Source: Caulobacter flavus
GTDB lineage: Bacteria > Pseudomonadota > Alphaproteobacteria > Caulobacterales > Caulobacteraceae
Direction: 5' to 3'
Length of the DNA: 64,000 nucleotides
Assembly: GCF_003722335.1 (NCBI RefSeq)
Contig: NZ_CP026100.1
Span: 5,120,001 to 5,184,000, forward strand
Position numbers and translations under genes: made by a program. Below, piece after piece: positions 16,200 through 30,350 of the stretch; within the stretch, counting starts at the first letter, position 1, and every line of letters begins with the position of its first letter. Under the pieces are notes generated by a model, which had not been told where the DNA came from, did no database searches, and saw nothing but the letters and a program-made list of their open reading frames with translations.

Positions 16200-16239
16200 T
16201 GCGGGCGTAGTTCAGAGGTAGAACGTCAGCTTCCCAAGC
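16200..16239 (+). repeat. attL: 40-bp direct repeat, orphan 5' half of tRNA-Gly(CCC)
   Basis: Identical to 30311-30350. It covers the acceptor 5' strand, D arm, anticodon arm 5' strand and anticodon loop, then diverges at 16240. The stub cannot form a tRNA. Confidence 0.93.
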
Positions 16240-16266
16240 GCCCGATATGCGTGTCGAAACAATCGC

Positions 16267-16413
16267 TTAGCTGTAAATCGCGATCAATTTCGCTCTAACG
16301 ATTTCAATCGTTTGCGAGCGCTGCGTAAACGCATCAACTTCTGAAAAAGACGAAGTCCTAGAACGTGTCGACGCAGACGGACCCTGGTCCGGTATGTCAG
16401 GCTTGATAGGCAT
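16267..16413 (-). CDS. possible 48-residue small protein at the left end of the island
   Basis: A 49-codon frame from ATG 16413 to TAA 16267, preceded by a fair Shine-Dalgarno sequence (AAGGGAAGCGA). It begins MPIKPDIPDQGPSAS and ends in ERLIAIYS-like hydrophobic sequence after EIVRAK. Codon use is much less GC-rich at third positions than in core genes. No family recognised. It may be noncoding; the rest of 16240-16700 shows no other supported gene, only a CCTCGTGAGG inverted repeat at about 16429-16438. Confidence 0.3.
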   Translation of the reverse strand: MPIKPDIPDQGPSASTRSRTSSFSEVDAFTQRSQTIEIVRAKLIAIYS

Positions 16414-16700
16414 TCGCTTCCCTTATACCTCGTGAGGATCCGAGGTCTCTCTATGGAGGTTTTCAGCGCTGCTGCGACTTGGCGGGGAACGCGACATGAA
16501 GACGACACCAAACTGACAGCTTGCTGATGTTGTTTGACTTCGCCCGCCCCATCGAGCGGGTTGGTGTGCGTTGTGCGAGTGGCCAAAACAGTTCACCCAC
16601 TGGGTTTTCAAGCTGGGGTAAGGACGAGGAGGTGGATCTCGAAGGGGGATCAACCGTGTCCACGCCTCCTGTCTTCGCGCAGCAGCAAAACTTGTAGTCC

Positions 16701-17456
16701 TTACCCGGTCGTCGTTTCGTGCTTCATCGCCTCGGCGGCCAGAGCAACATGCTCAGGGATGCGCCCGCTGGCCTTGCGCTCGCTATAGCGGTCAACGAGG
16801 TAGTCGGCGCGGTCGCGGGTCAACAGCGTGAACTTCACCAGCTCCTCCATCACGTCCACGACCCGCTCGTAATAGCTGGACGGCTTCATGCGGTCGTTGT
16901 CGTCGAACTCCTTGTAGGCCATGGCGACCGACGACTGGTTGGGAATGGTGATCATCCGCATCCATCGGCCCAGCAGGCGCAGGGTGTTCACCGCGTTGAA
17001 CGACTGCGACCCGCCGCTCACCTGCATGACCGCCAAGGTTCTCCCCTGGGTAGGGCGGACGCTGCCGATCTCCAGCGGTATCCAGTCGATCTGAGCCTTC
17101 ATGATCCCGCTGATAGCCCCGTGGCGCTCCGGGCTGCACCAGACCTGCCCCTCCGACCACAGCGACAGGGCGCGTAGCTCCTGGACTTTCGGATGGTCCG
17201 GGGTCGTGGCGTCGGGCAGCGGCAGGTCGCGAGGATCGAAGATGCGGGTTTCACAGCCCAACGCCTGGAGGATGCGGGCGGCCTCCTCGACCAGAAGGCG
17301 GCTGAAGGAGCGCTCCCGTAGCGACCCATAGAGCAGCAGGATGCGGGGCGGATGCTTGGAGGGCGCGGCGACTTCGAGCCGGGCCTGATCGACCTGAGCG
17401 AGGAACTTAGGGTCGAGAGCGGGGAGGTCGGTCACGGGCAACTCCAAAAGCGTCAT
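16701..17456 (-). CDS. arsH: ArsH NADPH-dependent organoarsenical oxidase
   Basis: A 251-residue flavoprotein of the ArsH family, which oxidises trivalent methylarsenicals and related compounds to less toxic forms. Motifs: [27 protein letters not shown] (the flavin phosphate-binding loop), [21 protein letters not shown] and [23 protein letters not shown]. The ATG at 17456 ([15 protein letters not shown]) is the likely start; the frame opens further upstream but runs into the ArsR operator. It is divergent from arsR with a 33-bp gap holding two palindromes, so it is probably arsenite-inducible. Confidence 0.93.
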
Positions 17457-17463
17457 TGAACTG

Positions 17464-17492
17464 TCGAATAATTCGAGCATATTGGAAATATG
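17464..17492. promoter_or_regulatory. two ArsR-type palindromic operators
   Basis: TCGAATAATTCGA (17464-17476) and CATATTGGAAATATG (17478-17492) are both perfect inverted repeats and lie back to back between arsH and arsR. The second overlaps the arsR start codon. This suits a repressor that controls both divergent transcripts. Confidence 0.7.
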
Positions 17493-17861
17493 GAATCGAA
17501 AGCCGCTGTCAATATGCTGTCCGCCCTCGGCCATGAGGGGCGTCTGGCCATCTTCCGCCTGCTGGTAAAGGCCGGTCCCGTAGGGATTGCGGCTGGCGAC
17601 ATCGCCCGGACGCTGAACGTCCTACCCAACAGCCTGTCGGCCAACCTCAACGTCCTCTCGCACGCCGACCTGATCACATCTCGCCGCGAAGGGCGGTCGA
17701 TCATCTACTCGGCGGACTACGGCGCGATGAGCGGCCTGCTGGGCTTCCTGATGGAGGACTGCTGCAACGGCTCGCCCCAGATATGCGCGCCGCTGAGCGC
17801 CATCGTCGCCAAGGCCGAGGCTTGCGACGGAACCTGCCTGACGGAAAAGGAGTCCGCATGA
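17490..17861 (+). CDS. arsR: ArsR arsenite-responsive repressor
   Basis: A 123-residue winged-helix repressor of the ArsR/SmtB family. Core: [18 protein letters not shown], the recognition region [25 protein letters not shown], and the wing [14 protein letters not shown]. Several cysteines lie at the C-terminus ([10 protein letters not shown], then C and DGTC), the likely As(III) site of one ArsR subclass rather than the helix-3 CVCDLC type. It leads the operon arsR-arsC-aqpS-arsC and overlaps the next gene as ATGA. Confidence 0.92.
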
Positions 17862-18391
17862 GCGCCGACCATCCCCAAATGAACGTGCTGTTCCTCTGCA
17901 CCCACAACTCGGCTCGGTCGATCATGGCCGAGTGCATCATGAACCGGGTCGGCGGGGGCCGATTCAAGGCCTATTCGGCGGGCTCGATGGCGAGCGGCGA
18001 GGTCAACCCGCACGCCCTCAACCTGCTCAAGCACCTGAACTACAAGACCGACGATCTGCGCTCAAAGAACTGGGACGAGTTCGCCGCGCTGAACAATCCC
18101 GACGCCCCCGAACTCGATTTCGTGTTCACCGTCTGCGACCACGCCGCCGGCGAGGTCTGCCCGATCTGGCCGGGCCAGCCGATGAGCGCCCACTGGGGCA
18201 TTCCCAACCCTGGCGACGCGGAGGGCTCCGAGGCCGAGATCGCCCTAGCCTTCGCCGAGGCCTATCGCCAGCTGGATAGGCGCATCACCCTGTTCTGCGC
18301 CCTGCCGATGAAGTCCCTGGACCGTCTATCGCTGCAACGCCGTCTCGACGAGATCGGCCAGACCAAGACCTCGGACAACACGGCGGCCTGA
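17858..18391 (+). CDS. arsC: arsenate reductase, low-molecular-weight phosphatase (thioredoxin-linked) type
   Basis: A 177-residue reductase turning arsenate into arsenite. It belongs to the phosphotyrosine-phosphatase fold: the P-loop CTHNSARS lies at about residues 14-21 in VLFLCTHNSARSIMAE, and further cysteines occur in VFTVCDHAAGEVCPIWPG. It is translationally coupled to arsR. A second, unrelated reductase is encoded three genes on, which is unusual in so short an operon. Confidence 0.92.
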   Translation: MSADHPQMNVLFLCTHNSARSIMAECIMNRVGGGRFKAYSAGSMASGEVNPHALNLLKHLNYKTDDLRSKNWDEFAALNNPDAPELDFVFTVCDHAAGEVCPIWPGQPMSAHWGIPNPGDAEGSEAEIALAFAEAYRQLDRRITLFCALPMKSLDRLSLQRRLDEIGQTKTSDNTAA

Positions 18392-18395
18392 TCGG

Positions 18396-19070
18396 ATGGA
18401 GCGGTTCAGCGTCTCGCGCCGCCTTGTCGCGGAAGGCCTAGGCTCGACCCTGCTGCTGGCGGTGGTGATCGGCTCGGGGATCATGGGCGAGCGCCTGGCT
18501 GGCGGGAACGTCGCCATCGCCTTGCTCGGCAACACCCTGGCCACGGGCGCGGCCCTGGTGGTGCTGATCTGGGTCTTCGGGCCGATCTCCGGGGCGCATT
18601 TCAACCCAGCGGTGACCCTGGTGGCGGCCCTGCGGCGGGACCTGCCGTGGTCGCTGACGCCAGGCTACCTCCTGGCGCAGATCGGCGGGGCGATCCTGGG
18701 CGCGTGGTGCGCTCACGCGATGTTCGGCGAGGCGATCTTCCAGGTCTCGACCAAGCTGAGGGACGGCGGCGCGCAGGCCTTCTCCGAGGCCGTCGCCACC
18801 TTCGGCCTGCTGGCGACCATCCTGGGGACCTCGCGGTTCCGACCGGACAGCACGCCAATGGCGGTCGGCCTCTACATCACCGCCGCCTACTGGTTCACCG
18901 CCTCGACCTCGTTCGCGAACCCGGCGGTGACGGTGGCGCGGAGCCTGTCGGACACCTTCGCCGGGATCGCGCCCTCCAGCGCCCCGGCCTTCATCCTTGC
19001 CCAGCTGTTCGGCGCGCTCCTCGCGGCGGGCGTCTTCGGCTGGCTCCTCAAGACGGACACGACCCCATGA
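18396..19070 (+). CDS. aqpS: aquaglyceroporin, probable arsenite channel
   Basis: A 224-residue inner-membrane MIP-family channel with six membrane segments. The two pore motifs are FNPAVT (about residues 68-73) and FANPAVT (about 170-176). In Sinorhizobium meliloti the homologous aqpS sits in an ars operon and lets arsenite leave the cell down its gradient. The same role is likely here because no ArsB or Acr3 pump is encoded. The next gene starts with an ATGA overlap at its stop. Confidence 0.92.
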   Translation: MERFSVSRRLVAEGLGSTLLLAVVIGSGIMGERLAGGNVAIALLGNTLATGAALVVLIWVFGPISGAHFNPAVTLVAALRRDLPWSLTPGYLLAQIGGAILGAWCAHAMFGEAIFQVSTKLRDGGAQAFSEAVATFGLLATILGTSRFRPDSTPMAVGLYITAAYWFTASTSFANPAVTVARSLSDTFAGIAPSSAPAFILAQLFGALLAAGVFGWLLKTDTTP

Positions 19071-19480
19071 GCGACGCTGACTTTCCGATCGTCATCTTCC
19101 ACAACCCGGCCTGCGGCACGTCACGCAACACGGTCGCCATGGTTCAGGCCGCTGGCTACGCGCCCAAGGTGGTAGAGTATCTTCAAGCTGGCTGGACCCA
19201 TGACCAACTTCGAGAGTTGGCGGGTGAGGCTGGTCTCACATTCCGAGCCCTCATGCGCGAGAAGGGCACACCCGCCGAGGCGCTGGGGCTGCTGGCAGAC
19301 GGCGTGGACGAGGCGCGCATACTCGACGCCATGGTCGAGCACCCGATCCTCGTGAACCGCCCCCTCGTCGTGACGCCGAAGGGCGTGAAGCTCTGTCGCC
19401 CCTCCGAGGTGGTGCTCGACCTACTGGACCGGAAGCCGGAGAGCTTCACCAAGGAGGACGGCGAGGTGGTTAAGCTCTGA
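19067..19480 (+). CDS. arsC: arsenate reductase, glutaredoxin-linked ArsC type
   Basis: A 137-residue protein of the ArsC/Spx fold. The active site is in IVIFHNPACGTSRNT, with Cys followed three residues later by Arg; downstream are HPILVNRPLVVTPKGVKLCRP and the usual C-terminal helix. It reduces arsenate with glutathione/glutaredoxin, so the operon encodes two chemically different arsenate reductases. It is the last gene of the arsenic operon; 207 bp of unassigned sequence, with a GTGATCTTGGATCAC palindrome near 19601, separate it from the MazG-like gene. Confidence 0.93.
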   Translation: MSDADFPIVIFHNPACGTSRNTVAMVQAAGYAPKVVEYLQAGWTHDQLRELAGEAGLTFRALMREKGTPAEALGLLADGVDEARILDAMVEHPILVNRPLVVTPKGVKLCRPSEVVLDLLDRKPESFTKEDGEVVKL

Positions 19481-19687
19481 GCCTCAGTCGCGATGTTCGG
19501 TCTCCGCGTGCGGTACATGCGGGCTGGAATTCTGTGACGTTTCGCGCAACGTCCGTAGCGCCTAGTGCCAAGCGCTACCGGCGACCGGACGAGGCCACCC
19601 GCGTGATCTTGGATCACTGCTCAGCGAACATGGATATAGAGAAGGGAATCGGTCAGGCTTCCAACCCGGCGTTGAGGGGAAACGACC

Positions 19688-20863
19688 GTGGATGATCAAT
19701 ATGAGGCGTTGAGCCTATCCGCGTATGCAGCGGGTGCGGCTCGAACGGACCGAGGGGTGGACGGCCAGTCTCTGGCATTTCCGCTTCTGGGGCTGTTCGG
19801 TGAAACCGGCAGCCTCCTCAGCGAACTCAAGAAGAAGCAGCGCGATAAAGCCGCCTCGCGCGCCTACGCTGACGCTGTCGCCGATGAACTGGGGGACGTG
19901 CTCTGGTACTTGGCGTCAATCGCGAACCGAGGCGGAATCAGCTTGAATGCGGTTGCCGCTCATGTGGTGCGGAACGATGCTGAATGGGCTGGAGTCGAAA
20001 TCCCAGATCTCACCTTCGAGACCCTCCAGCCCCACAACATTCCCCGCACAGGTCAAGCTCAGCCAGATTTTGAGACAACTCTCCTGGCCCTCGCTGATGA
20101 AGTAGGCGGACTTGTACGGGCTCACCGTGAGGGCGAGATCCAGCACGGCGGGGCGACGCTCGCCCTGCCGTTGTCGAGGATTTTCAAGCTCCTGTTACGT
20201 GCCTCGCGCGAAGCGGGGATGACGCTGGAAAGTGCCGCGATCAAGAATCTATACAAGACCCAAGATCGCTGGCCGGATGAGCGTCGCTATCCTGCCGCCT
20301 TCGATGAAGGCTGCGACGAGGATGAGCAATTACCCAGGCAGATGACGATCGACATTTTTGAAAAGAAGGTTGGTGGATACCCTTTCGTCTTCCAGCGCTG
20401 CAACGAACTTTTCATCGGAGATCGTCTAACCGACAACTCACACGAACCGGATGATTATCGTTTTCATGACGTCTTCCATTTCGCATTTGTGGCGATACTC
20501 AGCTGGTCGCCGGTGATCCGGTCCCTACTGCGGCTCAAACGCAAAAGCTTGCCGAAGACGGACGAAACGGAAGATGGCGCACGCGCAATTCTCATCGAAG
20601 AGGGCATCTCGACCTGGGTCTTCGGCCAAGCCGCACCGCTGCAGCTCTTCGAGGGAATGAATCCCGGGCAAATGCCGATTGGTATCTTGAAGCAAGTTCG
20701 CCAGTTTGCGTCCGGCTACGAGCCACAGGTGTGCCCTCTGTGGCTGTGGGAGGAGGCGTTGCTCCAAGGTTATGCCGCCTTTCGTTTCCTCAAGACGCAC
20801 CGGCGGGGGCGAGTCATTGTGGATTTCAACAACCGGCAATTACGTATAGAGCCCCTGCCGTGA
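19688..20863 (+). CDS. double MazG-like nucleotide pyrophosphohydrolase with MazG C-terminal-type domain
   Basis: A 391-residue protein from a GTG start with GAGGGGAA upstream. Residues 25-85 carry a MazG domain with the metal-binding pattern GLFGETGSLLSELKKK (E39, E46) and DELGDVLWYL (E67, D70). Residues 128-200 look like a second, weaker MazG repeat (LADEVGGLVRAHREGE, NLYKTQDRWP). Residues 215-391 form a separate domain with DDYRFHDVFHFAFVAILSWSPV and IEEGISTWVFGQA, similar to C-terminal domains known from some MazG proteins. Predicted to hydrolyse NTPs or dNTPs to monophosphates. Its stop shares a base with the next ATG. Confidence 0.82.
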   Translation: MDDQYEALSLSAYAAGAARTDRGVDGQSLAFPLLGLFGETGSLLSELKKKQRDKAASRAYADAVADELGDVLWYLASIANRGGISLNAVAAHVVRNDAEWAGVEIPDLTFETLQPHNIPRTGQAQPDFETTLLALADEVGGLVRAHREGEIQHGGATLALPLSRIFKLLLRASREAGMTLESAAIKNLYKTQDRWPDERRYPAAFDEGCDEDEQLPRQMTIDIFEKKVGGYPFVFQRCNELFIGDRLTDNSHEPDDYRFHDVFHFAFVAILSWSPVIRSLLRLKRKSLPKTDETEDGARAILIEEGISTWVFGQAAPLQLFEGMNPGQMPIGILKQVRQFASGYEPQVCPLWLWEEALLQGYAAFRFLKTHRRGRVIVDFNNRQLRIEPLP

Positions 20864-21534
20864 TGACCCCGACCGACTTCGTCGCCGCGCTTGAGCGAGC
20901 AGCCCTCCCGGACGTTTTTAACCCTTGGCGAGACCATTGCGCCGTCCATGATCTGGACGACGCCGCCGAGCGTCGTCGCGAAAACCTCAGGCTGGTGCTC
21001 GAACAGGCGCTGGAGGGGGGCGTGACCACCATGTGGGTTGCCCGCGATCTTGGATATCGGGGCGGCCGACGCACCGGTGTCCCCCTAACGGACGAGGTAC
21101 ATCTGGCTTCCGCAGGGGCGTTGTTCCGCGATGTTGCCCTGACGCGCGCCACTCATGGGCCGGTTGTGGCCGAACGGACCGCTGCCGTGGTTTGGCGAGT
21201 ACTGGAACAGGTCCGTCAGCCCGTAGTGCTTTGGAATGTCTTTCCCTTCCATCCGCACGAGGCAGGCGATCCGATGTCGAACCGTTGCCATACGCGCGCC
21301 GAACGGGAGGCCACTTGGCCGCTTCTGGAGGCATTGATCGGAATGATCCGACCTGAACGGATTGTCGCCATTGGTCGCGACGCCAGCATGGCGTTGGCCG
21401 ATCTCGGGGTCACATCGTTCTCCGTGCGACATCCCAGCTACGGTGGACAGTCCGAGTTTATCGCTGGGATGCAGGATCTCTACGCCCTAACCGACGAGCC
21501 TCCGCTTTTCGCGGCATCGGCCGGAAGGGCCTAG
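20863..21534 (+). CDS. uracil-DNA-glycosylase-superfamily protein
   Basis: A 223-residue protein starting at the ATG in the TGATG overlap. UDG-fold motifs: VFNPWRD (residues 18-24), WVARDLGYRGGRRTG (58-72) as the first active-site loop, WNVFPFHP (124-131), IVAIGRDA, and the base-flipping-type HPSYGG (190-195). It does not match the classical Ung motif GQDPYH, so substrate range is open. It is coupled to the MazG-like gene, and its TAG stop overlaps the TAG of the convergent thymidylate-synthase-like gene in a single CTAG. Confidence 0.8.
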   Translation: MTPTDFVAALERAALPDVFNPWRDHCAVHDLDDAAERRRENLRLVLEQALEGGVTTMWVARDLGYRGGRRTGVPLTDEVHLASAGALFRDVALTRATHGPVVAERTAAVVWRVLEQVRQPVVLWNVFPFHPHEAGDPMSNRCHTRAEREATWPLLEALIGMIRPERIVAIGRDASMALADLGVTSFSVRHPSYGGQSEFIAGMQDLYALTDEPPLFAASAGRA

Positions 21535-22277
21535 GCGGCCTGATCACAGGCCGCCAGCAACTTCTGAACTTCGCCGCGCGGCTGATCGGCAACGGCGTGG
21601 GTCGAGACGATCGTCAGCGATCCAACCTGCAGGCCAGCTTCTTCAGCCACGAAGGCCATCAGACGACCTAAGCCGATGAAATTGCCCAGCAGCTTCTCCA
21701 CATAGTAGTGGTTGCGGTACATCACAGTCAGGTCCAGCCGCTCGCCGTTGGGTGTCTTGCGGGGTTTGAAACTGCCGTGACTCAGGCATTGCCCACCGTA
21801 GGAAACGCGCGTCGCATCCCGGTTCGGGTCGAAGATCGTGAACTCGTACTTATTCCGAGCAGTTACCGCCGGGTCAGACAGCCGATCAATGATGTCGGCC
21901 AGTTGGTTGACCGTTTCGCCGGTTGCTGTCCCCACGTTGATCATGCGTTCAAAGTAGTAACCCGACCATCGCTCGTTTTTGCCGGCTGCGGGTAAGACGC
22001 GGGTCATGAAGCGATCATAAAAGGCTGGCGCACCGTGCCGGCGATAGAGCGCGTTCGGAAAGATCGTGTTCGCCACCGTTTCGATGGGCTTCTTGTCCTT
22101 CTCCCGTAGGAATGTGTCCACGACTGAAACGACGGGATCAGCCAGCGTGGATTTCGCCAACGGATCAGCGATGTCCAAGATGACATTGTGCGCCTCACCG
22201 CCCTCCTTGAGGACGGCGCGCAGGCCTTCGCGCCAGGCTGTGGCGCAATCAGGCTGCGACGGGATCGCCAGATACAT
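21531..22277 (-). CDS. thymidylate-synthase-superfamily enzyme
   Basis: A 248-residue protein from the ATG at 22277 (AAGGAAAA upstream). Its C-terminal two thirds follow thymidylate synthase order: WSGYYFERMINVG, VNQLADIIDRL, RNKYEFTIFDPNRD, a candidate catalytic Cys164 in GGQCLSHGSF, then MYRNHYYVEKLLGNFIGLGRLMAF and LQVGSLTIVSTHA. Key ThyA features are changed: PCH becomes QCLSH and the QRS-D stretch becomes YRNHYY. A changed nucleotide substrate or C5 chemistry on pyrimidines is plausible. It is the last gene of the minus-strand operon and overlaps the peptidase gene by 29 bp. Confidence 0.78.
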   Translation of the reverse strand: MYLAIPSQPDCATAWREGLRAVLKEGGEAHNVILDIADPLAKSTLADPVVSVVDTFLREKDKKPIETVANTIFPNALYRRHGAPAFYDRFMTRVLPAAGKNERWSGYYFERMINVGTATGETVNQLADIIDRLSDPAVTARNKYEFTIFDPNRDATRVSYGGQCLSHGSFKPRKTPNGERLDLTVMYRNHYYVEKLLGNFIGLGRLMAFVAEEAGLQVGSLTIVSTHAVADQPRGEVQKLLAACDQAA

Positions 22278-22926
22278 CGGACTTTTCCTTGAATAGGGCG
22301 GTGCCAAACAAGCTCGCCGCCACGTAGGAACGGGGCAGCCAGGCGTGACCATCCACTCCCCAGCCGTTGCCCCAGCTATTACGCACCAGCACAGCGGGTT
22401 CTCCGCCAACTTCGCCATGTCCGACTGCCAGGACGGCGTGCCTGATCGCGGGGTCGGGTGGTCCACTGTGCAGCTGGACTACACCGAACGCATCTGGAGT
22501 GAAGAATCCCTGCGATAACATCATCAGCATCAGGACGAGGCGTCCGCTTTCAAGTGATGCGACGAGGTGGTCCCAGCTCGGCGCAGCGGGAGCTCCGATG
22601 CAGTGATAGACTGGGTCATTGAAATCCGGCGCGGCCCATGGTTCCGGCAAGGTTGCCAGGTACGGCCAGACGGTCTCCAGAGGTTGACCGTCTTCCGCCA
22701 ACGCCTCGATGATCGAAGGAAGGGTTGCCCCTACTTGAGATGGCCGTTTGGCCCGGCGCTGCGCATGGAAAAAAGCTGCTTCGCATGAAAGGGGCGGCCA
22801 AGGGGCGCGCAGCCCAGCGTGCGCATCGCTCGCAGCAAACGCCAAACAAGTAGGCCGGCGACCTTGGTCGCGTGCCGGCCCGAGCCGATTTCGCAGGTCA
22901 ATCTGGACCGAGATGCTTCCGGTCAT
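22249..22926 (-). CDS. papain-like (C1-type) cysteine peptidase
   Basis: A 225-residue protein with the complete papain signature: the oxyanion Gln21 and catalytic Cys27 in RDQGRRPTCLAFA, His163 in IRHAVLAVGHG, and Asn183 in VRNSWGNGWGVDGHAWLP. There is no signal peptide and no pro-region, so it should act in the cytoplasm, unlike secreted cathepsins. The gene just upstream, overlapping by 4 bp, encodes a chagasin-like domain; chagasins are inhibitors of exactly this peptidase family. Target proteins are unknown. Confidence 0.88.
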   Translation of the reverse strand: MTGSISVQIDLRNRLGPARDQGRRPTCLAFAASDAHAGLRAPWPPLSCEAAFFHAQRRAKRPSQVGATLPSIIEALAEDGQPLETVWPYLATLPEPWAAPDFNDPVYHCIGAPAAPSWDHLVASLESGRLVLMLMMLSQGFFTPDAFGVVQLHSGPPDPAIRHAVLAVGHGEVGGEPAVLVRNSWGNGWGVDGHAWLPRSYVAASLFGTALFKEKSDVSGDPVAA

Positions 22927-23951
22927 GCAGCGCCCAGCCGAAGCCGCCGCTCGGCCCGCGATAGTCCACCGGCTTCCGGGCCGCTGAAGTCCAGCCGAAC
23001 AGAAAATGCGTCGATTGCCGCCTCAGGTTGCCAAGGGCGAATTTGGCGCAAGGTGACGTTTTCAGTCGAGGTTTCGGTCGCGGCGATCAAAATTCGACGA
23101 AGGTAGGGGCCACCCACGGCGTCGCCTTCAACACCGCTCCTGATATCCGAAATGGCGGTGAAGCCTGCGTCGGACAGCGGCCGCACATCCCAGAGGAAGC
23201 CGGCTGAGCCCTTCTCCTGCAACTCCACAACAATATGGTCGTTGGATCCGCCATCCAGACGGCCGCCGTCGTCCCGTTCGGTCAAGACCCAAACATTGCC
23301 TTTGTAGGTTTCGGGCCTGAAGTCGCCGAGCAGCGTTACTTTAAGCTTCCTCCGCGGGACGGCGAGAAGGGCGATGCGGTTTGCCCCGGAGATCATGCCA
23401 TAGCGTTCTAGCGTGCGTACCGTAGCCTCGTAGCTCGCTCCGAGTCGCAATGAGAGCTGATAGACGATCTCAGGCCGAACGAGATCGTCGATACGCCACG
23501 CTTGCCGACCGCAGTGAAGTTGAATGAGCCACTTCGGCATCAGCATCGCCGAAGCGAAGGCGTCGGCTTCAGCTTCCTGATAGCCATCGCGCCGATCGCG
23601 AATCCGCAACTCTTCGAGGGAGCCACGCCGTAGGATTTGCTCTTCGTCATCGAGGCTCGGACGATGCCCCATCAGCCGATGCCCCAGTTCGTGGGCCGCC
23701 GTAAAGCGCTGGATGCTCAGAGGACGTTCGGTCGTAACCAAAATTCCCGGGGACGGCACATCAACATAGGCACCCAGTAGGCCTTTGAGCGGCCGCACAA
23801 GCAGCGGAAGGTCAAGTTGAGCGATGATGGCAAAGATATCGACCGCGCTGGGCTCGGCCTGTATCTGGTCTCGCAGCTTGAGGTCGCGCTGAAGTCGCCC
23901 GGCAGCCTGCACGCCGTTGCGCACCGCGTCGCTATAGTTTGTGGCAGCCAC
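22923..23951 (-). CDS. ImmA/IrrE metallopeptidase fused to a chagasin-like inhibitor domain
   Basis: A 342-residue protein read from a GTG at 23951. Residues 40-140 form an ImmA/IrrE zinc peptidase: AAHELGHRLMGH (H87, E88, H91) and a third-ligand helix EAEADAFASAMLMP. Residues 235-322 resemble the inhibitor I42 (chagasin) fold with its three binding loops: KGSAGFLW (247-254, like NPTTGYxW), VGGPY (279-283, like GxGG) and RPWQ (305-308). ImmA-type enzymes usually cleave a partner XRE repressor, and one is encoded just upstream. The fusion suggests a sensor that holds the next gene's papain-like peptidase in check. Confidence 0.85.
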   Translation of the reverse strand: MAATNYSDAVRNGVQAAGRLQRDLKLRDQIQAEPSAVDIFAIIAQLDLPLLVRPLKGLLGAYVDVPSPGILVTTERPLSIQRFTAAHELGHRLMGHRPSLDDEEQILRRGSLEELRIRDRRDGYQEAEADAFASAMLMPKWLIQLHCGRQAWRIDDLVRPEIVYQLSLRLGASYEATVRTLERYGMISGANRIALLAVPRRKLKVTLLGDFRPETYKGNVWVLTERDDGGRLDGGSNDHIVVELQEKGSAGFLWDVRPLSDAGFTAISDIRSGVEGDAVGGPYLRRILIAATETSTENVTLRQIRPWQPEAAIDAFSVRLDFSGPEAGGLSRAERRLRLGAA

Positions 23952-24301
23952 TACGCCCCCGATGCCGATTTTGATCGAAGGTACTGAGCGAAGCGCGTCA
24001 GTTCTGTCCGATCGTCTTCAGACATGTCGGCAGCCAAGCGCGCCAGATGAACGACATCCGGCGGCAGTTCGCTTGCCTGCTCTTCTCCGGTGAGATAGCC
24101 GACGGTTTGGCGATACAAGCGGGCCAACCGAACAAGCTCGGTCGCTTCGACGCGTCGTTGGCCGCTTTCGATCCCGGTCAACGCTGTACGCGTCAATCGC
24201 AAATGTGCAGCAACTTCATCCTGCTTGAGGCCCAGATATTCGCGCGCCTCCTTTAGTCGCTCGCCTAGACGCTTGCGGTCGCCCTCTTCATCACCGGGCA
24301 T
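23951..24301 (-). CDS. XRE-family repressor of the peptidase operon
   Basis: A 116-residue DNA-binding protein. The helix-turn-helix is at residues 8-65: RLGERLKEAREYLGLKQDEVAAHLRLTRTALTGIESGQRRVEATELVRLARLY (in pieces GLKQDEVAAHL and RLTRTALTGIESGQRR). The ATG at 24301 shares a base with the ACP-like stop; a TTG one codon earlier is possible. Its stop TAG overlaps the next GTG. XRE-ImmA pairs are typical of phage-like or stress switches where the peptidase inactivates the repressor. Confidence 0.87.
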   Translation of the reverse strand: MPGDEEGDRKRLGERLKEAREYLGLKQDEVAAHLRLTRTALTGIESGQRRVEATELVRLARLYRQTVGYLTGEEQASELPPDVVHLARLAADMSEDDRTELTRFAQYLRSKSASGA

Positions 24302-24648
24302 CAATGGCCTCCCGGATGCTTCTTGTGCCAGGCCGTCTCGATCCGGGGCACCATGTGGGCCAGAGCCTCGTCGATCGAGTCATAACCGCCGGTGCGAACG
24401 ATGTTCTTAGGTTCGAAGCCCAAGATCGGTTCGAGCGCGCAGGTAATCTCCACCACAGTCAACGAGTCCAAGCGCATTTTGACTGCTCGAAGGGCAGTTG
24501 GCTCGGAAGGAAGGGTTATGCCCTGCATCCCGGCCTCGTCTTGAGCAAGCTGGGTCAGCTCGTTCAGCAAGCAGCTAACGATCTCTTGCATGGGGAAAGC
24601 CTTCAGATCAGGCTTTTCCATAGTGGGGGCGGGCGCGTCATCGGACAT
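24301..24648 (-). CDS. acyl-carrier-protein-like phosphopantetheine acceptor
   Basis: A 115-residue protein whose C-terminal half resembles carrier proteins: MRLDSLTVVEITCALEPILGF places a candidate phosphopantetheine Ser62 in a DSL motif at the start of helix II, followed by YDSIDEALAHMVPRIE as helices III and IV. The N-terminal 20 residues are an extra extension. No fatty-acid, polyketide or peptide synthase gene is near, so it may be a diverged carrier or a structural adaptor. It is the first gene of a five-gene overlapping operon. The spacing before 24836 holds a likely operator. Confidence 0.7.
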   Translation of the reverse strand: MSDDAPAPTMEKPDLKAFPMQEIVSCLLNELTQLAQDEAGMQGITLPSEPTALRAVKMRLDSLTVVEITCALEPILGFEPKNIVRTGGYDSIDEALAHMVPRIETAWHKKHPGGH

Positions 24649-24680
24649 AATAACAATGTAATGTCGGATTTCCGGACATT
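24642..24680. promoter_or_regulatory. three-half-site operator for the XRE regulator
   Basis: AATGTC...GACATT forms an imperfect 21-bp palindrome at 24660-24680 around CGG/CCG arms, and a third half-site CGGACAT overlaps the ACP-like start codon (24642-24648). The half-site is approximately ATGTC(C/G)G. Position at the head of the operon suits autorepression by the encoded XRE protein. Confidence 0.55.
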
Positions 24681-24835
24681 CAAGGCAAAGGTTAGTACGA
24701 GGCTGAAATCAACGTCCGCGCGGGTGGAAGGCAATCACAGCCCCCTTCTAGCTACCCATTTTGCCTTCGCGCACACCCTTGGCCCCGAGAATCCCGCCCA
24801 GTAGATGGTGATGCTCCATCGTCCAGGAGCATCAG

Positions 24836-25552
24836 ATGCAACGGTTCGTCGCCTACTACAGGGTCTCCACCAAGCGGCAGGGCGAGAGCGGCCTGGGCCT
24901 CGACGCCCAGCGCGACGCCGTCCGCGCCTATGTTGCCGGCCGGGCGGTGGTCGCCGAGTTTGAGGAGGTGGAGAGCGGCAAGAAGGCGGACAGGCCTGCT
25001 CTGGAGGCCGCCCTTCGGGCCTGCCGGCTGCACGGGGCCATCCTGGTCATCGCCAAGCTCGACCGATTGTCCCGGAGCGTCACCTTCATCTCGAAGCTGA
25101 TGGACGAGGGCGTCCAGTTCGTCGCCTGCGATCTGCCCCACGCCAACGCCCTCACCGTCGGCATCATGGCCAGCGTCGCCCAGTTCGAGCGCGAAATGAT
25201 CTCGACCAGGACCCGCCAGGCCCTCGCCGCCGCCAAGGCTCGCGGTGTCGTCCTGGGCGGTCGCCGTGGCGATCACCGGATCGAGGACCACGCCACTGTC
25301 GGTCGTATGCGTTCAACTCGGGTGAGGTCCGAACGCGCAACAAGCGCCGCCGGCGACGTCATGGCGGTCGTGGAAGACATTCGTGGTGGCGGTGAGCGAT
25401 CGTTGCAGGCTTTGGCTGACGAGCTCAACGCTCGGAAGATTTTCGCGCCGCGCGGTGGTCTTTGGTCGGCGGGGCAGGTCAGACGAACCGTGCTCCGAGC
25501 CCAGACCGTTTCGCCGGTGGACCAAAAAGAATGCCTACATCAGGCGTCTTGA
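24836..25552 (+). CDS. serine recombinase (resolvase/invertase family)
   Basis: A 238-residue recombinase with AGGAG before the ATG at 24836. The catalytic domain starts MQRFVAYYRVSTKRQGESGLGL (Ser in YRVST), continues with AILVIAKLDRLSRS (second Arg motif) and QFEREMISTRTRQALAAAKARG (helix E). The C-terminal 90 residues include a helix-turn-helix-like SLQALADELNARKI. It is the size of resolvases or DNA invertases. It marks an internal boundary: upstream lies the peptidase operon, downstream an AT-rich segment with nested inverted repeats. Confidence 0.88.
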   Translation: MQRFVAYYRVSTKRQGESGLGLDAQRDAVRAYVAGRAVVAEFEEVESGKKADRPALEAALRACRLHGAILVIAKLDRLSRSVTFISKLMDEGVQFVACDLPHANALTVGIMASVAQFEREMISTRTRQALAAAKARGVVLGGRRGDHRIEDHATVGRMRSTRVRSERATSAAGDVMAVVEDIRGGGERSLQALADELNARKIFAPRGGLWSAGQVRRTVLRAQTVSPVDQKECLHQAS

Positions 25553-25892
25553 CGATCCGGAAAGTTGTGGTAACCGCGCATGCGTTGTTAATAGTAGATA
25601 TAACAATATCTCTTATTTGATATATTTCTATTGGTTGGAGAAGCGCGCTTCGCGCGCACAACGTGATTTGCTTCGCCCGGAGCGCTACGCGCTCTCGGGA
25701 CTGCACAAATCACGTTGTTGAACTCAGATTGTCACTTGTGTCCGGGGTGTGGACTTGCGACAAAGTCCCTCGACCTCGATGGTCACTCTCCTGCGGTGCT
25801 GAGCGCCGCATCGCGGCGCTACCAGCTTCGTTTGCAGTGCGTCGTCTATCCTACCGGGTCATCAGGGATGGTTCCGGTCAAAATAGAACCTG
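25553..25892. repeat. AT-rich gap with nested inverted repeats (hairpin 25658-25718)
   Basis: No gene is supported in this 340-bp gap. Bases 25560-25640 are unusually AT-rich for this genome. A GCGCGC/GCGCGC stem follows at 25642-25657, and then a 13-bp perfect inverted repeat (ACAACGTGATTTG at 25658-25670, complement at 25706-25718) that encloses a second stem, CCCGGAGCGC with GCGCTCTCGGG. This could be a recombination site for the serine recombinase, an extruded single-strand origin, or a two-way terminator. Confidence 0.6.
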
Positions 25893-26930
25893 ATGTCCAC
25901 TCCAAAACCCACCCGGGTTCCCACTCGGGATCAGCTGCGGCGCGCGAGCGCTGCTGTATTCGCGTCTCCTTGGTCGGTCGGCACGGCCTCTGACGGCTCT
26001 CCGAGCCTTCTTGGCCGGGACGCCATCCAAATGATGCTCGCTGAGCTTCCTGCCCGCGAACAAGATGCAGGCCGTAGAGTCCTTGCTGCGATGGAAGGGC
26101 AGTTGCAGACATACACGCCCGCACTTCTCGGGATATTCGAAAAGCGAGATGCGATCCGCGCGCGCTGGGCTGAGGCGGCCCAAAGGCCCTTTGTGCCCAG
26201 GGTCAGAGCGGTCCTGCGTCAGGCCATCGGGTGCGCGATCTACGCAGATTCAAGCGCGGGGCTTGAGCGCTTGGCGGTGGGTGATCGGCCTCCTCCCGAA
26301 GGACCCGCGGTGGAGACCAGCTGTTCGGCTGTGTTCGACGCGTTGCTCGGAACTGCGGAACGAGTTCCTCCGATTTCGGCGTCGTTCATTAACGAGCCTG
26401 AAGTTTGGATCTCGGCGCAGAAGCCATCACCAGCAGAAGCTTCGCGCTGCTCCACCGGCAAGGCGGAGCTGCAGCAAGCGATCAACTATATGACCGCCCG
26501 CGCTTGGCGGCACCATGTTGTGCCTGGAGCTTGGCGGCTTCGGCTGGTCGCCGGCAGCGCCCTTCAGCGGGAAATCCGGAAGTATCGTGACGACGACACC
26601 GAGCGCGGACGAGCTCGACACATCGCGGGTCAGGCGATCTTGAAGATCTCCGCCAAGATTGGACGCGATGCTTTCCGGATGATGGCGCGGAGCAGAGACG
26701 ATGATGTCGGCAGCCTCCGTGCCTACCTCGAAGAGCTTCGGGCGGTCATGTCGCAAGCCGCTCAGCGGGGGGGTGAAGAAGGGCTGCGCCAGCTCGTTGA
26801 GGAAGGTGTCCACGGGCCTGTCACCGACAAGAGGCGTCACCGACGAGTGAAACGTTGGGAGGCGGCCAAGGAGCTCCTGACGCACCTCGGCGACGGCATC
26901 GAAGCCGAGCCACTCGCCAGCAGCAGCTAG
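25893..26930 (+). CDS. unknown island protein
   Basis: A 345-residue frame starting at ATG 25893 with no clear Shine-Dalgarno sequence. No family recognised. It looks soluble and helical, with basic stretches (HRRVKRWEAAKELLTHL near the C-terminus, ALQREIRKYRDDDTERGRARH in the middle). Two features are SKIGRDAFRMMARSRDDD and AAQRGGEEGLRQLVEEGVHG. Its TAG stop shares CTAG with the stop of the convergent XRE gene. Codon use is less GC-biased than in core genes. Confidence 0.6.
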   Translation: MSTPKPTRVPTRDQLRRASAAVFASPWSVGTASDGSPSLLGRDAIQMMLAELPAREQDAGRRVLAAMEGQLQTYTPALLGIFEKRDAIRARWAEAAQRPFVPRVRAVLRQAIGCAIYADSSAGLERLAVGDRPPPEGPAVETSCSAVFDALLGTAERVPPISASFINEPEVWISAQKPSPAEASRCSTGKAELQQAINYMTARAWRHHVVPGAWRLRLVAGSALQREIRKYRDDDTERGRARHIAGQAILKISAKIGRDAFRMMARSRDDDVGSLRAYLEELRAVMSQAAQRGGEEGLRQLVEEGVHGPVTDKRRHRRVKRWEAAKELLTHLGDGIEAEPLASSS

Positions 26931-27187
26931 AAGTCCAACCTGTCCGGCATCGCCGCCGCCAAAGCCGCCATCAGGTCGCCGGCAGGATTGCCCAGCGCCT
27001 TGGCGATGGCGATGAACTCCACCACATCGATCCGGCGTTCCCGGCCTTCGATCTTGGAGACAAAGGAACGCGGCTTTCCAAGGCGGTCCGCCAGCTCACG
27101 CTGAGTCAAACCGGCCTCTTTCCGCTTCTCGACCAAGAAGCCGATCGCCACTCCGTATGCCGTCGAGGAGACCCAAGGTCTCTGCAT
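26927..27187 (-). CDS. small XRE-family DNA-binding protein
   Basis: An 86-residue regulator from ATG 27187 (MQRPWVSSTAYGV). Helix-turn-helix: LVEKRKEAGLTQRELADRLGKPRSFVSKIEGRERRIDVVEFIAIAKALG in overlapping parts, of the kind that usually autoregulates. A perfect 15-bp palindrome lies 49 bp upstream, between this gene and the divergent lipoprotein gene. A longer frame from 27238 is possible but would run into that operator. Confidence 0.82.
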   Translation of the reverse strand: MQRPWVSSTAYGVAIGFLVEKRKEAGLTQRELADRLGKPRSFVSKIEGRERRIDVVEFIAIAKALGNPAGDLMAALAAAMPDRLDF

Positions 27188-27235
27188 GGTCGCCGCCTGT
27201 TCCCAGAGCGGCGCTTCTGCTATGCGCGGCGTCAG

Positions 27236-27250
27236 CACCCATCATGGGTG
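27236..27250. promoter_or_regulatory. perfect 15-bp operator between the XRE and lipoprotein genes
   Basis: CACCCATCATGGGTG is a perfect palindrome with a single central base. It lies between divergent genes, 27 bp before the lipoprotein ATG and 49 bp from the XRE ATG. The small XRE protein is the obvious candidate binder. Confidence 0.6.
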
Positions 27251-27276
27251 CAATTGTTCTGCATTTGGGGGGATGT

Positions 27277-27819
27277 ATGCGCGGAGTGAGTTGGGTTCGT
27301 GCGCTGGTGGCGACGCCTTTCGTCGGAGCTTGCATGGCCAGCCTGTTGGCGGGCTGTAGCGGCCGCGATCCTGACGCCTATCCGAAGGCTTTGGCCGAGG
27401 ACGCCCACGTCGCCCTACTTGGAGCCCTGAAAGATCCTGCCAGCGCCCTTTTTCAAGACGTCGCTTGGTCCACTGGAGTTGATGGTCCGACCATCTGCGG
27501 GCTGGTGAACTCGAAAAACAGCATGGGCGGCTACACCGGTATGCAGCGGTTTGTTCGAACCTTCTCGCCCGATGACGCGGCCATTCTCGAGCAGGTGGCG
27601 AAGGGGGAGACTTCTAAGGACCTCGCCCGTCATGAGCTCAAGGCCAATCGGCTCATAGCTGAGAGCCACAATCGGTTTCCCGACAACGGCGAGGCTATCA
27701 AACCGACTTCTCTGCTCGTGACCGAGGAGCAGGTAGGTAAGAGCAAAATGGACCATGTCTGGGCGTCGAGATGTGGATTTCCCGACCCTGTCGCCTCCCC
27801 GAACGCCTTCACCAATTAA
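27277..27819 (+). CDS. predicted lipoprotein of unknown function
   Basis: A 180-residue product from ATG 27277 (GGGGGGAT upstream). The N-terminus MRGVSWVRALVATPFVGACMASLLAGC is a lipoprotein signal with lipobox LLAGC, so it should be anchored in a membrane facing the periplasm. The mature part includes DPASALFQDVAWS and TICGLVNSKNSMGGYTGMQRFV, a pattern seen in small phage- or island-borne proteins of no known function. It is probably controlled by the adjacent XRE protein. Confidence 0.75.
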   Translation: MRGVSWVRALVATPFVGACMASLLAGCSGRDPDAYPKALAEDAHVALLGALKDPASALFQDVAWSTGVDGPTICGLVNSKNSMGGYTGMQRFVRTFSPDDAAILEQVAKGETSKDLARHELKANRLIAESHNRFPDNGEAIKPTSLLVTEEQVGKSKMDHVWASRCGFPDPVASPNAFTN

Positions 27820-27981
27820 GTTCTTCGGTCTGCCGACTGTGACGGGGGTAATCCTGTTCCTTCCGACACCAAGTTAGTCTTTGGCGGCGGCGGCGGTAAA
27901 ACGCCATACTCTTCAGATGCTTCCCACCCGACGAGCATTGATCGAACCGCTACGGTGATCTTCACATCAACGGAGATCATC

Positions 27982-28257
27982 ATGACCAATCGGTCGTTTT
28001 CGAACTTCCTCGTCAGTCAGATCATCACGGCCAACACCACGCCGGCCGATCTGGCCCGGGACCTGAACTACAAGAGTCCCCTCATCGTCGATCAATGGGT
28101 CGCCGGTGAGGGTCTGCCCGACGCTGGCCTGCTTCCCCGGATCATCGAAGCTCTGAACGCCGACCCGGTGATCGCGGCGATGGCCTGGCTGTCGGCCAAA
28201 GTGCCCGAGTTGGCTGAGCCCCTGCAGGCGGTGGTCATCGAGCAGGTGACGGCATGA
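27982..28257 (+). CDS. small putative HTH protein
   Basis: A 91-residue protein with CGGAG before ATG 27982. Residues 15-70 look like a helix-turn-helix of the phage repressor type (ANTTPADLARDLNYKSPLIVDQWVAGEGLPDAGLLPRIIEAL in parts NTTPADLARDL and LIVDQWVAGEGLPD). It overlaps the next gene as ATGA, so the two are translated together. Function unknown. Confidence 0.6.
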   Translation: MTNRSFSNFLVSQIITANTTPADLARDLNYKSPLIVDQWVAGEGLPDAGLLPRIIEALNADPVIAAMAWLSAKVPELAEPLQAVVIEQVTA

Positions 28258-28430
28258 CCCTGCACGACTTCGTCGTCCGCTATTTCGAACTGTTCATTCT
28301 GGCCTACTTGGTCATCGCGACCATCGTCATCATCCGGAAGCACCAGCGGCGATGGCGGCGGGAGGCTGAAGCCAGGAAAGGCGAGACCAGCTGTCCGCCA
28401 GTTCAACCCGACGACCCCGCCCGTCGCTGA
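28254..28430 (+). CDS. 58-residue single-span membrane protein
   Basis: A frame of 58 codons starting in the ATGA overlap with the preceding gene and ending at TGA 28430. Residues 10-27 (YFELFILAYLVIATIVII) form one membrane helix, followed by a strongly basic stretch (RKHQRRWRREAEARK) that would stay in the cytoplasm. The coupling, GC-rich codon use and clean topology support a real gene. A toxin-like or adaptor role is possible but unproven. Confidence 0.6.
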   Translation: MTLHDFVVRYFELFILAYLVIATIVIIRKHQRRWRREAEARKGETSCPPVQPDDPARR

Positions 28431-28790
28431 CCGCGCCCGAGTCTCTGCGCAACCGCATCGATTTCCCGACTCGGGAAGCGGTCACAGGGGCTCGAAACGA
28501 CCTGCTCCGCTACCAGGGTAGCGGGCGGGGTTTGCGAGTCTCCTGGACGAGAAAATGGACGCTACCCCACGCTGCGTTTCAAGCGGCACGACGCAGAAAA
28601 ATGCCTACATCCATCCGCTTGCATCCAGTGAGGCCTTGGACTATTCAGCCGCCCTCCCGTTCTCGCGGGGGCGACTTCAGCGCTCTGAAGAGGTTGTCGG
28701 ACCTCAAACCGATACCCCCAGTGCCGCCCGCGGGCGCGCTGCATCCGGTCTCCGCTCACCGGTTCAGGAGCGGGCAGTCGGTACTGTCTC
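28431..28790. repeat. gap with an 8-bp inverted repeat; no supported gene
   Basis: CCCGAGTC at 28436-28443 and GACTCGGG at 28468-28475 form a perfect stem with a 24-base loop, straight after the small membrane protein gene; it may be a terminator without a T-run. Frames crossing the rest of the gap on either strand lack start signals and family matches. The excisionase-like gene must be transcribed from a promoter in this stretch. Confidence 0.5.
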
Positions 28791-29108
28791 ATGACATCCC
28801 TGGCCACCTCACGCGACCTCTCGGTCGCGCCTCGACCCGCGAACGACGCGGGCCGCGTACTTCCCCGTCTCCTGAACGCCAAGGAGGCTGCGCAATACCT
28901 AGGCTTTGAAACAAGGGACGTGCTCAAGTCCATTCCAGTCAAGCCGATCGAACTCAGCGTCACTGGTTCTGGATCTAGCAAGCGCTGGGACCGACGAGCC
29001 ATCGACCAATGGCTCAATGAAAAAAGTGGTCTCCTGTCGCGCCCGGCGCTGGAGAGCGGTCATGACGTGGCCCAGGCCGAATTTGACGCTTGGCTTGCCG
29101 CCCAATGA
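28791..29108 (+). CDS. AlpA/excisionase-like helix-turn-helix protein
   Basis: A 105-residue DNA-binding protein starting at ATG 28791. The core LLNAKEAAQYLGFETRDVLKSIPVKPIELSVTGSGSSKRW resembles MerR-like excisionase domains (AKEAAQYLGF, then a wing, then RWDRRAIDQWL). It overlaps the integrase start as ATGA, so both are made together. A role in directing excision or regulating integrase is likely. Confidence 0.75.
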   Translation: MTSLATSRDLSVAPRPANDAGRVLPRLLNAKEAAQYLGFETRDVLKSIPVKPIELSVTGSGSSKRWDRRAIDQWLNEKSGLLSRPALESGHDVAQAEFDAWLAAQ

Positions 29109-30211
29109 AACGGTGCACTCTTGGCCTGCCGCACGCTCATCGGGTGATGAACCGGTCATCCAACGGTACGGTGAGGATTTATTGGTATCGAACGCGGGGC
29201 GGGGAGCAGATCGGCAAGTTCGTCGGCGCAAGCTATGCGGAGGCGATCGCGCTGGAGACGGCTGGTGCTCAGGAAGTCATCGCGGCCTACGCGCGCAAGC
29301 CTGAAAGGCCGGAGGCCAATGCAGCGACGCTTCGAGGCGTGATTGTTCGCTACAAGGCGTCTCCCACCGGCTTTCTGCGTCTAGCGGACAAGACGAAGGT
29401 CAACTGGCGACGTAGCCTGGACCTGATCGACGCAAAGTTCGGCAATCTCACCACCAAGGCTGTCAGTGCGAAGGGGGTCAAGAAAGCGATGATCGCATGG
29501 CGCGACGGCTTCAAGGATACGCCGCGCCAAGCTGACGCCCACATGACCGTGTTGAAACGCTTGCTGTCGTGGGCCGTTGAAAATGAAGAGATCGAGAAGA
29601 ACCCGATTGAAAGGGTGGAGGGGATCTACAAGTCCAACCGCGCGGCCTTGATCGTCGAACCCGACGCGCTGGAAGCGATCCTAGAGCGAGCAACGCCTGA
29701 AGCGCAGCTCGCTATCCGATTTGCTGCCGCAACCGGCGTGCGCCGTGAAGATCTCTGTGAGATCGAATGGAGCTTTTTGCGGGAGAACCATCTTCTATTT
29801 CCCACCAACAAGAGCTCCGGCAGGAAGATTGTTCGCGTGCCCCTGCTAGGAGAGGCCTGGGCGGTTGTGGAAGAGCTCAAAAAGCAACGTGAACAAGCTA
29901 TCGCTGAGGGGCGGGTGCCATCAGCGTTCATGTTCGTGACCGATCGGAAGACACCTTGGAAACCGGACTCTCTCACGCAGGCCTTTGCTCGGGCCGCTAA
30001 AGCCGCCGGCGTCGTTGGTCGTAGACTGAACGATTTGCGGGGAACCGCGATCACCAAGTTTGTCGTTGCGGGCTTCGACAACGATACCATCGCGGACATC
30101 GTTGGTTGGGAAGTGACAAGGGTCGCCAACATCCGGAAGCACTACGTCGACTCCTGGAATGTCGCTGAGCGCCTCATGCAGCAGCTTGAGCGATCCAGAC
30201 AGACGGGCTAA
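29105..30211 (+). CDS. tyrosine-recombinase integrase of the island
   Basis: A 368-residue integrase ending 100 bp from attR. An N-terminal arm-binding region and a SAM-like core-binding domain (residues 70-170) precede the catalytic domain. Catalytic residues: R213 in ATGVRREDL, R312 in LNDLRGTAITKF, W335 in IVGWEVTRV and the nucleophile Y347 in RKHYVDS. The His that normally precedes DLR by one position is Asn (N309), an odd but tolerated change in some integrases. It catalyses insertion at the tRNA-Gly anticodon loop. Confidence 0.92.
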   Translation: MKRCTLGLPHAHRVMNRSSNGTVRIYWYRTRGGEQIGKFVGASYAEAIALETAGAQEVIAAYARKPERPEANAATLRGVIVRYKASPTGFLRLADKTKVNWRRSLDLIDAKFGNLTTKAVSAKGVKKAMIAWRDGFKDTPRQADAHMTVLKRLLSWAVENEEIEKNPIERVEGIYKSNRAALIVEPDALEAILERATPEAQLAIRFAAATGVRREDLCEIEWSFLRENHLLFPTNKSSGRKIVRVPLLGEAWAVVEELKKQREQAIAEGRVPSAFMFVTDRKTPWKPDSLTQAFARAAKAAGVVGRRLNDLRGTAITKFVVAGFDNDTIADIVGWEVTRVANIRKHYVDSWNVAERLMQQLERSRQTG

Positions 30212-30310
30212 AGGGAGCGACCTGTCGCAAGGTGCTGTGTAAACCGCGCTGTAAACTGACCTGAAGCGTTGTCGTTTTGGATTGTTTACCGCATTGAAAA
30301 CACACAAAAA

Positions 30311-30350
30311 TGCGGGCGTAGTTCAGAGGTAGAACGTCAGCTTCCCAAGC
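30311..30350 (+). repeat. attR: 40-bp direct repeat, 5' half of the intact tRNA-Gly(CCC)
   Basis: Identical to 16200-16239. Here it continues into the remaining half of the tRNA gene. The crossover therefore lies in or near the anticodon loop, and the 5' half of the functional tRNA was brought in by the island. Confidence 0.93.

Follow-up and report, generated by a model that had tools for sequence, protein, structure and literature searches.

Within a 64,000-nucleotide stretch of Caulobacter flavus DNA (contig NZ_CP026100.1, positions 5,120,001 to 5,184,000; hereafter the window, to whose numbering all positions refer) lies an operon of five overlapping minus-strand genes. It begins with the gene for an acyl-carrier-like protein (P0001, 24301..24648) with a predicted phosphopantetheine site at D61-S62, followed by genes for a CapH-like XRE repressor (P0002, 23951..24301; HTH_31, 9.6e-12 in Pfam), a fusion of an ImmA/IrrE metallopeptidase with a chagasin-type inhibitor (P0003, 22923..23951), a papain-family C1 peptidase (P0004, 22249..22926; Peptidase_C1, 3e-9) and an enzyme whose predicted structure has the thymidylate synthase (TS) fold (P0005, 21531..22277). 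In P0003 the M78 domain, with its HExxH motif, occupies residues 64-181 (23409..23762; Peptidase_M78, 4.1e-9) and the chagasin (I42) domain residues 237-316 (23004..23243; Inhibitor_I42, 7.7e-7), both above the Pfam cut-off. The five genes, with overlaps of 1, 1, 4 and 29 bp, are as the original prediction described them, and Pfam bears out the domains it had assigned to the XRE, ImmA-chagasin and papain proteins (HTH_31, Peptidase_M78, Inhibitor_I42 and Peptidase_C1). An alternative TTG start for XRE at 24304 would lengthen the carrier/XRE overlap to 4 bp, as found in 10 of the 13 annotated relatives. That prediction listed the five genes correctly and overlooked two convergent plus-strand partners: a predicted nucleotide pyrophosphohydrolase with MazG and MazG_C domains (P0006, 19688..20863; MazG_C 1.1e-74, MazG 2.5e-8 in Pfam), and a UDG-like protein, putatively of the UDG superfamily (P0007, about 20863..21534), whose start was taken from a homologue alignment.

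These genes recur together in other genomes as one conserved unit. The TS-like protein led to 102 loci, all of which have XRE, ImmA and TS. The acyl carrier protein (ACP) is present in 100, MazG_C in 98, C1 in 91, UDG in 87 and HMUDK_hel, a family discussed below, in 13, a co-occurrence far beyond chance. The original prediction had staked itself on the five genes co-occurring elsewhere, and it therefore survives this comparison. The hosts include Proteobacteria, Streptomyces and cyanobacteria, with one haloarchaeal plasmid and viral contigs; the nearest relatives are from Brevundimonas. Loci were drawn from 23 plasmid records (14 fetched, nine not), from the best 80 of 228 genome relatives in an alignment search, so that the sample is biased toward near relatives, and from three viral contigs. 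Left out of the 102 were L018, which by our own hidden Markov models (HMMs) has only a TS fragment of 180 aa, and L024-L044, 21 weak genome matches of 28-50 bits with no other module gene within about 3 kb; L003, L004 and L021-L023 are shorter excerpts of the counted L019, L020 and L048-L050. L048 duplicates L111, which leaves 101 distinct loci, and removal of near-copies leaves 50 rows at <80% TS identity and 41 at <72%. The counts are not blind, since the gene-family HMMs were built from 14 of the counted loci. In L103, L126 and L050 the sequence stops where the missing gene would stand.

A reciprocal search with ImmA-chagasin matched 20 plasmids, 19 of them within the TS list of 23; the twentieth, from Bacillus pumilus, covers 35% of the query. 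Among the host and 100 relatives, 101 genomes in all, the TS-like protein occurs in three, the same three give strong C1 matches, and six further genomes give weak C1 matches. In a sample spread evenly over the phylum, 24 of 398 genomes gave TS matches, four of them, with the host among these, at more than 190 bits. With so few carriers among the sampled genomes, the module is sporadic, like mobile genes.

The regulatory part of the operon resembles the CapH/CapP switch of the cyclic-oligonucleotide-based antiphage signalling system (CBASS), in line with the XRE-ImmA switch pair of the original prediction. The best PADLOC match of the XRE protein is capH (8.2e-12) and that of ImmA is capP (2.6e-16); against the PDB, the ImmA family profile finds CapP (7t5t, 5.2e-11) first and IrrE next, and separately matches amoebiasin-2 (5.6e-8) and chagasin. 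As in CapH/CapP, the XRE gene adjoins the gene for an ImmA-type peptidase, whose HExxH motif is present in 102 of 102 loci, and a palindromic operator is predicted ahead of the operon. This palindrome, AATGTCCGGAAATCCGACATT, lies on the minus strand at 24660..24680, 11 bp ahead of the ATG of the carrier gene, and its core (24662-24678) has one mismatch to the family pattern TGTCNGANNNTCNGACA. With up to two mismatches, that pattern is found close to where the carrier gene starts in 64 of the 91 C1-bearing loci and is missing from 27; it matches 69 times in 20,020 bp near carrier starts, against 56 times in 1,583,665 bp elsewhere. The operator-like palindrome of the original prediction is thus real and conserved, and XRE is predicted to bind it. 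Four of the 11 C1-less loci have another palindrome, GGTAAGANNNTCTTACC, at the same place. We regard the identity of the switch as well supported. In CapP and IrrE a sensing domain is located after the peptidase domain, and CapP is activated by single-stranded DNA, which stimulates repressor cleavage. In P0003 it is the chagasin domain that follows the peptidase domain, a feature by which it differs from CapH/CapP. CBASS membership itself was ruled out, as none of the seven module proteins matched a CBASS cyclase (CD-NTase) or effector in PADLOC.

The last gene of the operon encodes a protein that matches no Pfam family, including PF00303, the family of canonical ThyA; against the methanogen TS model P0005 reached 39.9 bits (E 3.2e-10), far under the cut-off of 174.55, and the profile of its family found no convincing PDB relative by sequence. 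We modelled P0005 with AlphaFold2 from a 33-row alignment, with a mean predicted local distance difference test (pLDDT) of 92.8, and a Foldseek search with the model returned 396 matches at E 0.001 or better; the predicted fold is that of TS. The nearest solved folds, in VIA comparisons, are the dCMP hydroxylase AfhB (Z 18.2, 202 aligned, root-mean-square deviation (rmsd) 3.4) and the CMP hydroxymethylase MilA (Z 18.1, 202 aligned, rmsd 3.0), with ThyA at Z 16.0 (198 aligned, rmsd 3.0). The structure prediction thus supports the TS-like identity first proposed, and the model places P0005 in the TS superfamily with a cysteine at the catalytic position. Two residues, C164 and N199, do not vary in any of the 50 rows of one alignment or the 33 of another. 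When the family was aligned by hhalign with the TS of Brevibacterium phage LuckyBarnes (76.9% probability), C164 fell on the cysteine of a Pro-Cys pair; in a weak alignment with the host ThyA (18.9%), C164 was two residues off, R188 was paired with an Arg, and N199 with the Asn of the PFN motif. We take C164 to stand at the position of the TS catalytic cysteine, R188 to be a phosphate ligand, and N199 to correspond to the uracil-reading residue of ThyA. Since N199 and R188 align in this way, a uracil substrate is favoured for P0005. It shares 16-18% identity with AfhB and MilA and differs from them in keeping Asn at the uracil-reading position. A housekeeping TS was ruled out: the host encodes a normal ThyA some 82 kb away from the operon, in a separate gene that is the sole PF00303 match in the genome. 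The weak TS-like domains of L024-L044 sit in frames of 488-780 aa, recur in a few families of the same phylum and have no other module genes nearby.

The carrier protein of the window likewise has no Pfam family match. Among its homologues, the Streptomyces protein matches PP-binding above the Pfam cut-off and the Allocoleopsis protein does so below it; searched against solved structures, the family profile matched acyl carrier proteins (best 2.5e-6). A DS pair containing the predicted modified serine is retained in 99 of 100 family members, and on the strength of this motif and the ACP profile we predict that P0001 is an acyl carrier protein to which a phosphopantetheine arm is attached. A phosphopantetheinyl transferase (PPTase) gene is present in four of the 102 loci; in L007 and L009 it adjoins that of the carrier, and in L016 and L020 it lies in another part of the locus. 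PMC5977210 tables an acyl carrier protein reductase of phage SP-15 among genes thought to act on dihydroxypentyl uracil, which may hint that uracil modification can involve groups bound to a carrier.

P0007 matches Pfam UDG at 2.3e-5 and 24.9 bits, against a cut-off of 24.3, and its best PDB match is at 0.013; the motif RHPSYGG is invariant in seven of seven homologues. UDG and HMUDK_hel are mutually exclusive: 87 of the 102 loci have the former and 13 the latter, none has both, and of the two with neither, one is cut short. HMUDK_hel (PF18723) is a homologue of phage thymine-hypermodification proteins, and its tblastn relatives occur in 488 phage records; among the 20 phage matches listed, one is annotated as alpha-glutamyl/putrescinyl thymine pyrophosphorylase. 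Its profile gave no convincing match in the PDB (best 0.091, an aquaporin). In LuckyBarnes (L131, 2828-6843) a TS, two annotated HMC glucosyltransferases and an HMUDK_hel gene annotated as hypothetical stand in series, a row that is likely a hypermodification cluster. Genes for dCTP deaminase occur in four of the 102 loci and for dTMP kinase in one; five have a second, longer TS (L019, 901-2529; L006, 14088-15140; L016, 4602-5657; L115 and L116) that resembles the LuckyBarnes TS in tblastn. Given MazG_C, UDG, HMUDK_hel and these accessory genes, the weight shifts from proteolysis to nucleotide chemistry, which is probably the constant theme of the module. The MazG_C domain (20279-20860), modelled alone, reached a pLDDT of 86.4, and Foldseek, with E 0.001 as the threshold, found nothing like it in the PDB; its invariant residues D58, H63, D64 and H67 (domain numbering) could form a metal site.

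Phage thymidine hypermodification, with 5-hydroxymethyldeoxyuridine (5hmdU), 5-HMUDK and aGPT-PPlase, is one of the known systems closest to the module. According to PMC6449724, 5hmdU is incorporated into DNA, acted on by a DNA kinase and carried through a further transfer. The module shares with such systems a TS-fold enzyme, MazG_C (phrog_229) and, in 13 of 102 loci, HMUDK_hel; it differs in having a carrier, a switch and a papain-chagasin pair, and in that the window lineage has the UDG-like gene instead of HMUDK_hel. Our own HMM search of the window locus found neither HMUDK_hel/5hmdU kinase nor aGPT-PPlase.

The papain and the chagasin domain go together, as first proposed. The papain family profile matches Blo t 1 (1.6e-23), ficin (2.4e-20) and cathepsin H (3.2e-19), and residues Q21, C27, H163 and N183, the predicted Gln-Cys-His-Asn catalytic set of a C1 peptidase, are invariant in 13 of 13 family members. 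By a hand-made motif test, an L2-type loop is present in 90 of 91 C1-bearing loci and an RPW-type L6 in 86 of 91, one C1-bearing locus having neither; neither loop is found in any of the 11 C1-less loci. Pfam (E 0.01) detects I42 in nine of 19 ImmA proteins of a mixed set (10 with C1, nine without) and, in a separate scan, in none of the nine from C1-less loci, so nine of the 10 accompanied by C1 carry it. The I42 domain thus comes with loops at the places of L2, L4 and L6, which matter in chagasin (PMC2607524). The module resembles chagasin-papain pairs in having loops at these places, and is unlike them in that the inhibitor is fused to a metallopeptidase, shares an operon with its presumed target, and has an L2 without the NPTT letters of chagasin. 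From this co-occurrence the chagasin domain may be a putative inhibitor of the papain. The rows without C1 group as a single clade of the TS tree (100/98), and the C1-chagasin association therefore counts as a single evolutionary contrast; the ImmA tree groups them more weakly (74/80).

The module is also mobile. It lies in a 14.1-kb island (16200-30350) delimited by 40-bp direct repeats, the left at 16200..16239 on the plus strand, shared with the tRNA-Gly end, and the right at 30311..30350 (plus strand) within the 5' part of tRNA-Gly. One end of the island carries an integrase (29090..30211, plus strand; Phage_integrase, 2.6e-14). The 'tRNA island' of the original prediction is thus right as an integration site, having a tRNA-Gly, an integrase and a 40-bp direct repeat, and wrong as a tRNA cluster, the window containing one tRNA-Gly. 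Elsewhere, 14 of the 23 plasmid records are predicted to be conjugative, and conjugation or partition markers flank 45 of 102 loci (a set that includes L018 and excludes the window). Defence-type genes annotated beside the module on some plasmids comprise AbiE, a caspase, CHAT with an S8 peptidase, Cas6 and ABC-3C; AbiEi was confirmed. A tblastn search of 50,697 phage records with P0005, P0006, P0007 and a cyanobacterial TS gave no match, and when the cyanobacterial TS was run against viral sequences a second time, no match was confirmed. For these four queries the reading as phage genes was rejected on the lack of matches in phage records, though three IMG/VR contigs bear the C1-less form.

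We tentatively read this module as a mobile, self-regulated conflict system, probably of defence, with modification of deoxypyrimidine nucleotides at its core; the reading as a whole falls somewhat short of an even chance, and a conflict role taken by itself is plausible and comes close to one. Before any trigger, XRE would be bound at the conserved palindrome ahead of the carrier gene. The trigger, by analogy with CapP, might be single-stranded DNA or DNA damage, upon which ImmA would cleave XRE and the operon would be expressed. The holo-carrier protein and the TS-fold enzyme would then make an unusual C5-substituted deoxyuridylate, MazG_C would clear the host pool of the modified nucleotide, and the modified base in DNA would be processed by UDG or by the HMUDK_hel protein. 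The papain would be kept inactive by the ImmA made along with it until their complex was disturbed. Overall, foreign DNA would be poisoned or marked as it replicates. Since relatives without C1 keep XRE, ImmA and TS, the gene content suggests that the protease was added to a nucleotide core.

Several points weigh against this reading. Genome loci lean toward near relatives, and the C1-chagasin link, as judged from the trees, is one evolutionary contrast. R188 is replaced in cyanobacterial-type members, and the ligand residues mapped in P0005 are C164, R188 and N199 only, so substrate and product are put forward by inference. The caspase and CHAT neighbours have no PADLOC match, nor do the carrier, C1, TS, UDG, MazG_C and HMUDK_hel proteins in PADLOC 2.0.0, the sole defence catalogue searched. 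The conjugation and partition flanks also suit an anti-restriction role. That role is unlikely in our estimate: modified thymidine in the DNA of the mobile element itself would evade restriction, as in phages, with the operon derepressed by an incoming single-stranded plasmid or an induced island. It draws on the conjugative plasmids and flanking markers, on the phage relatives of HMUDK_hel, among them the likely hypermodification cluster, and on the phage route from 5hmdU through a DNA kinase to transfer, as PMC6449724 describes it. The window locus, however, is without HMUDK_hel, and none of the seven module proteins matches a kinase or glycosyltransferase family in Pfam; a base-excising UDG is poorly compatible with retaining a modified base, and the papain with its inhibitor has no evident place. 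The evidence is divided: UDG and the defence neighbours lean toward defence, and the conjugative setting and HMUDK_hel toward self-modification.

Two further explanations shift the weight to single parts of the module. In a reading close to the original prediction the papain would be the effector: loss of ImmA-chagasin, driven by a trigger, would free the protease in the cytoplasm to kill the cell or stall it, the other genes being secondary; conserved C1 catalytic residues and the chagasin L2 loop, kept in all C1-bearing loci but one by the motif test, agree with this, but 11 of 102 loci that lack both C1 and the chagasin loops keep XRE, ImmA and TS (11 of 11) and ACP (nine of 11), and we consider it improbable. 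More improbable still is a stress-controlled cluster for specialised nucleotide metabolism or a nucleoside-type product, with no role against other replicons. MilA, a nucleoside-antibiotic enzyme, is among the top fold matches of P0005, and some relatives have dCTP deaminase or dTMP kinase; yet the annotated neighbourhoods examined contain no recurring export or tailoring gene, the module is mobile, and its type of switch is known from defence.

The conflict reading also has a more elaborate form, to which we give little credence: a cross-domain immune system that would build its weapon on a carrier. Here the TS intermediate on deoxyuridylate would be captured by the phosphopantetheine arm or would take over the group borne by that arm, yielding a carrier-borne or hypermodified nucleotide, and papain and chagasin would form a built-in lock, with papain loading, papain loss or phage attack on the papain sensed by ImmA before it cleaves XRE. 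Were the conflict reading true, carrier-protein-assisted nucleotide modification would be a new chemistry for microbial conflict systems, and a protease inhibitor would be built into a repressor-cutting enzyme; we know of no earlier switch of that kind. Prokaryotic viperins are radical-SAM enzymes that make an antiviral nucleotide analogue; the module would also make one, with a TS fold instead. It would be a plasmid- and island-borne counterpart to phage thymine hypermodification, with candidate active sites in nearly every gene. We found nothing on this gene set in the open-licence literature, a scope that does not establish absence from print; no described system known to us or found by us joins these genes, and the combination looks like an undescribed conflict or defence system.

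Other genes stand near the module. At the island end opposite the integrase are an NADPH-FMN reductase (16701-17534, FMN_red) and a member of the low-molecular-weight phosphatase family (17783-18391, LMWPc), a pair that is presumably of the arsenic-operon type, and the island has a resolvase at 24836-25552. In nine of 102 loci (L008, L048, L064, L106, L107 and L109-L112) a relative of strawberry-notch-type NTP hydrolases, as in L008, lies near the module, and in 10 of 102 (L006, L007, L058, L059, L066, L067, L071, L104, L115 and L116) a calcineurin-type phosphoesterase, about 720 aa long in L006 and L007, stands beside it.

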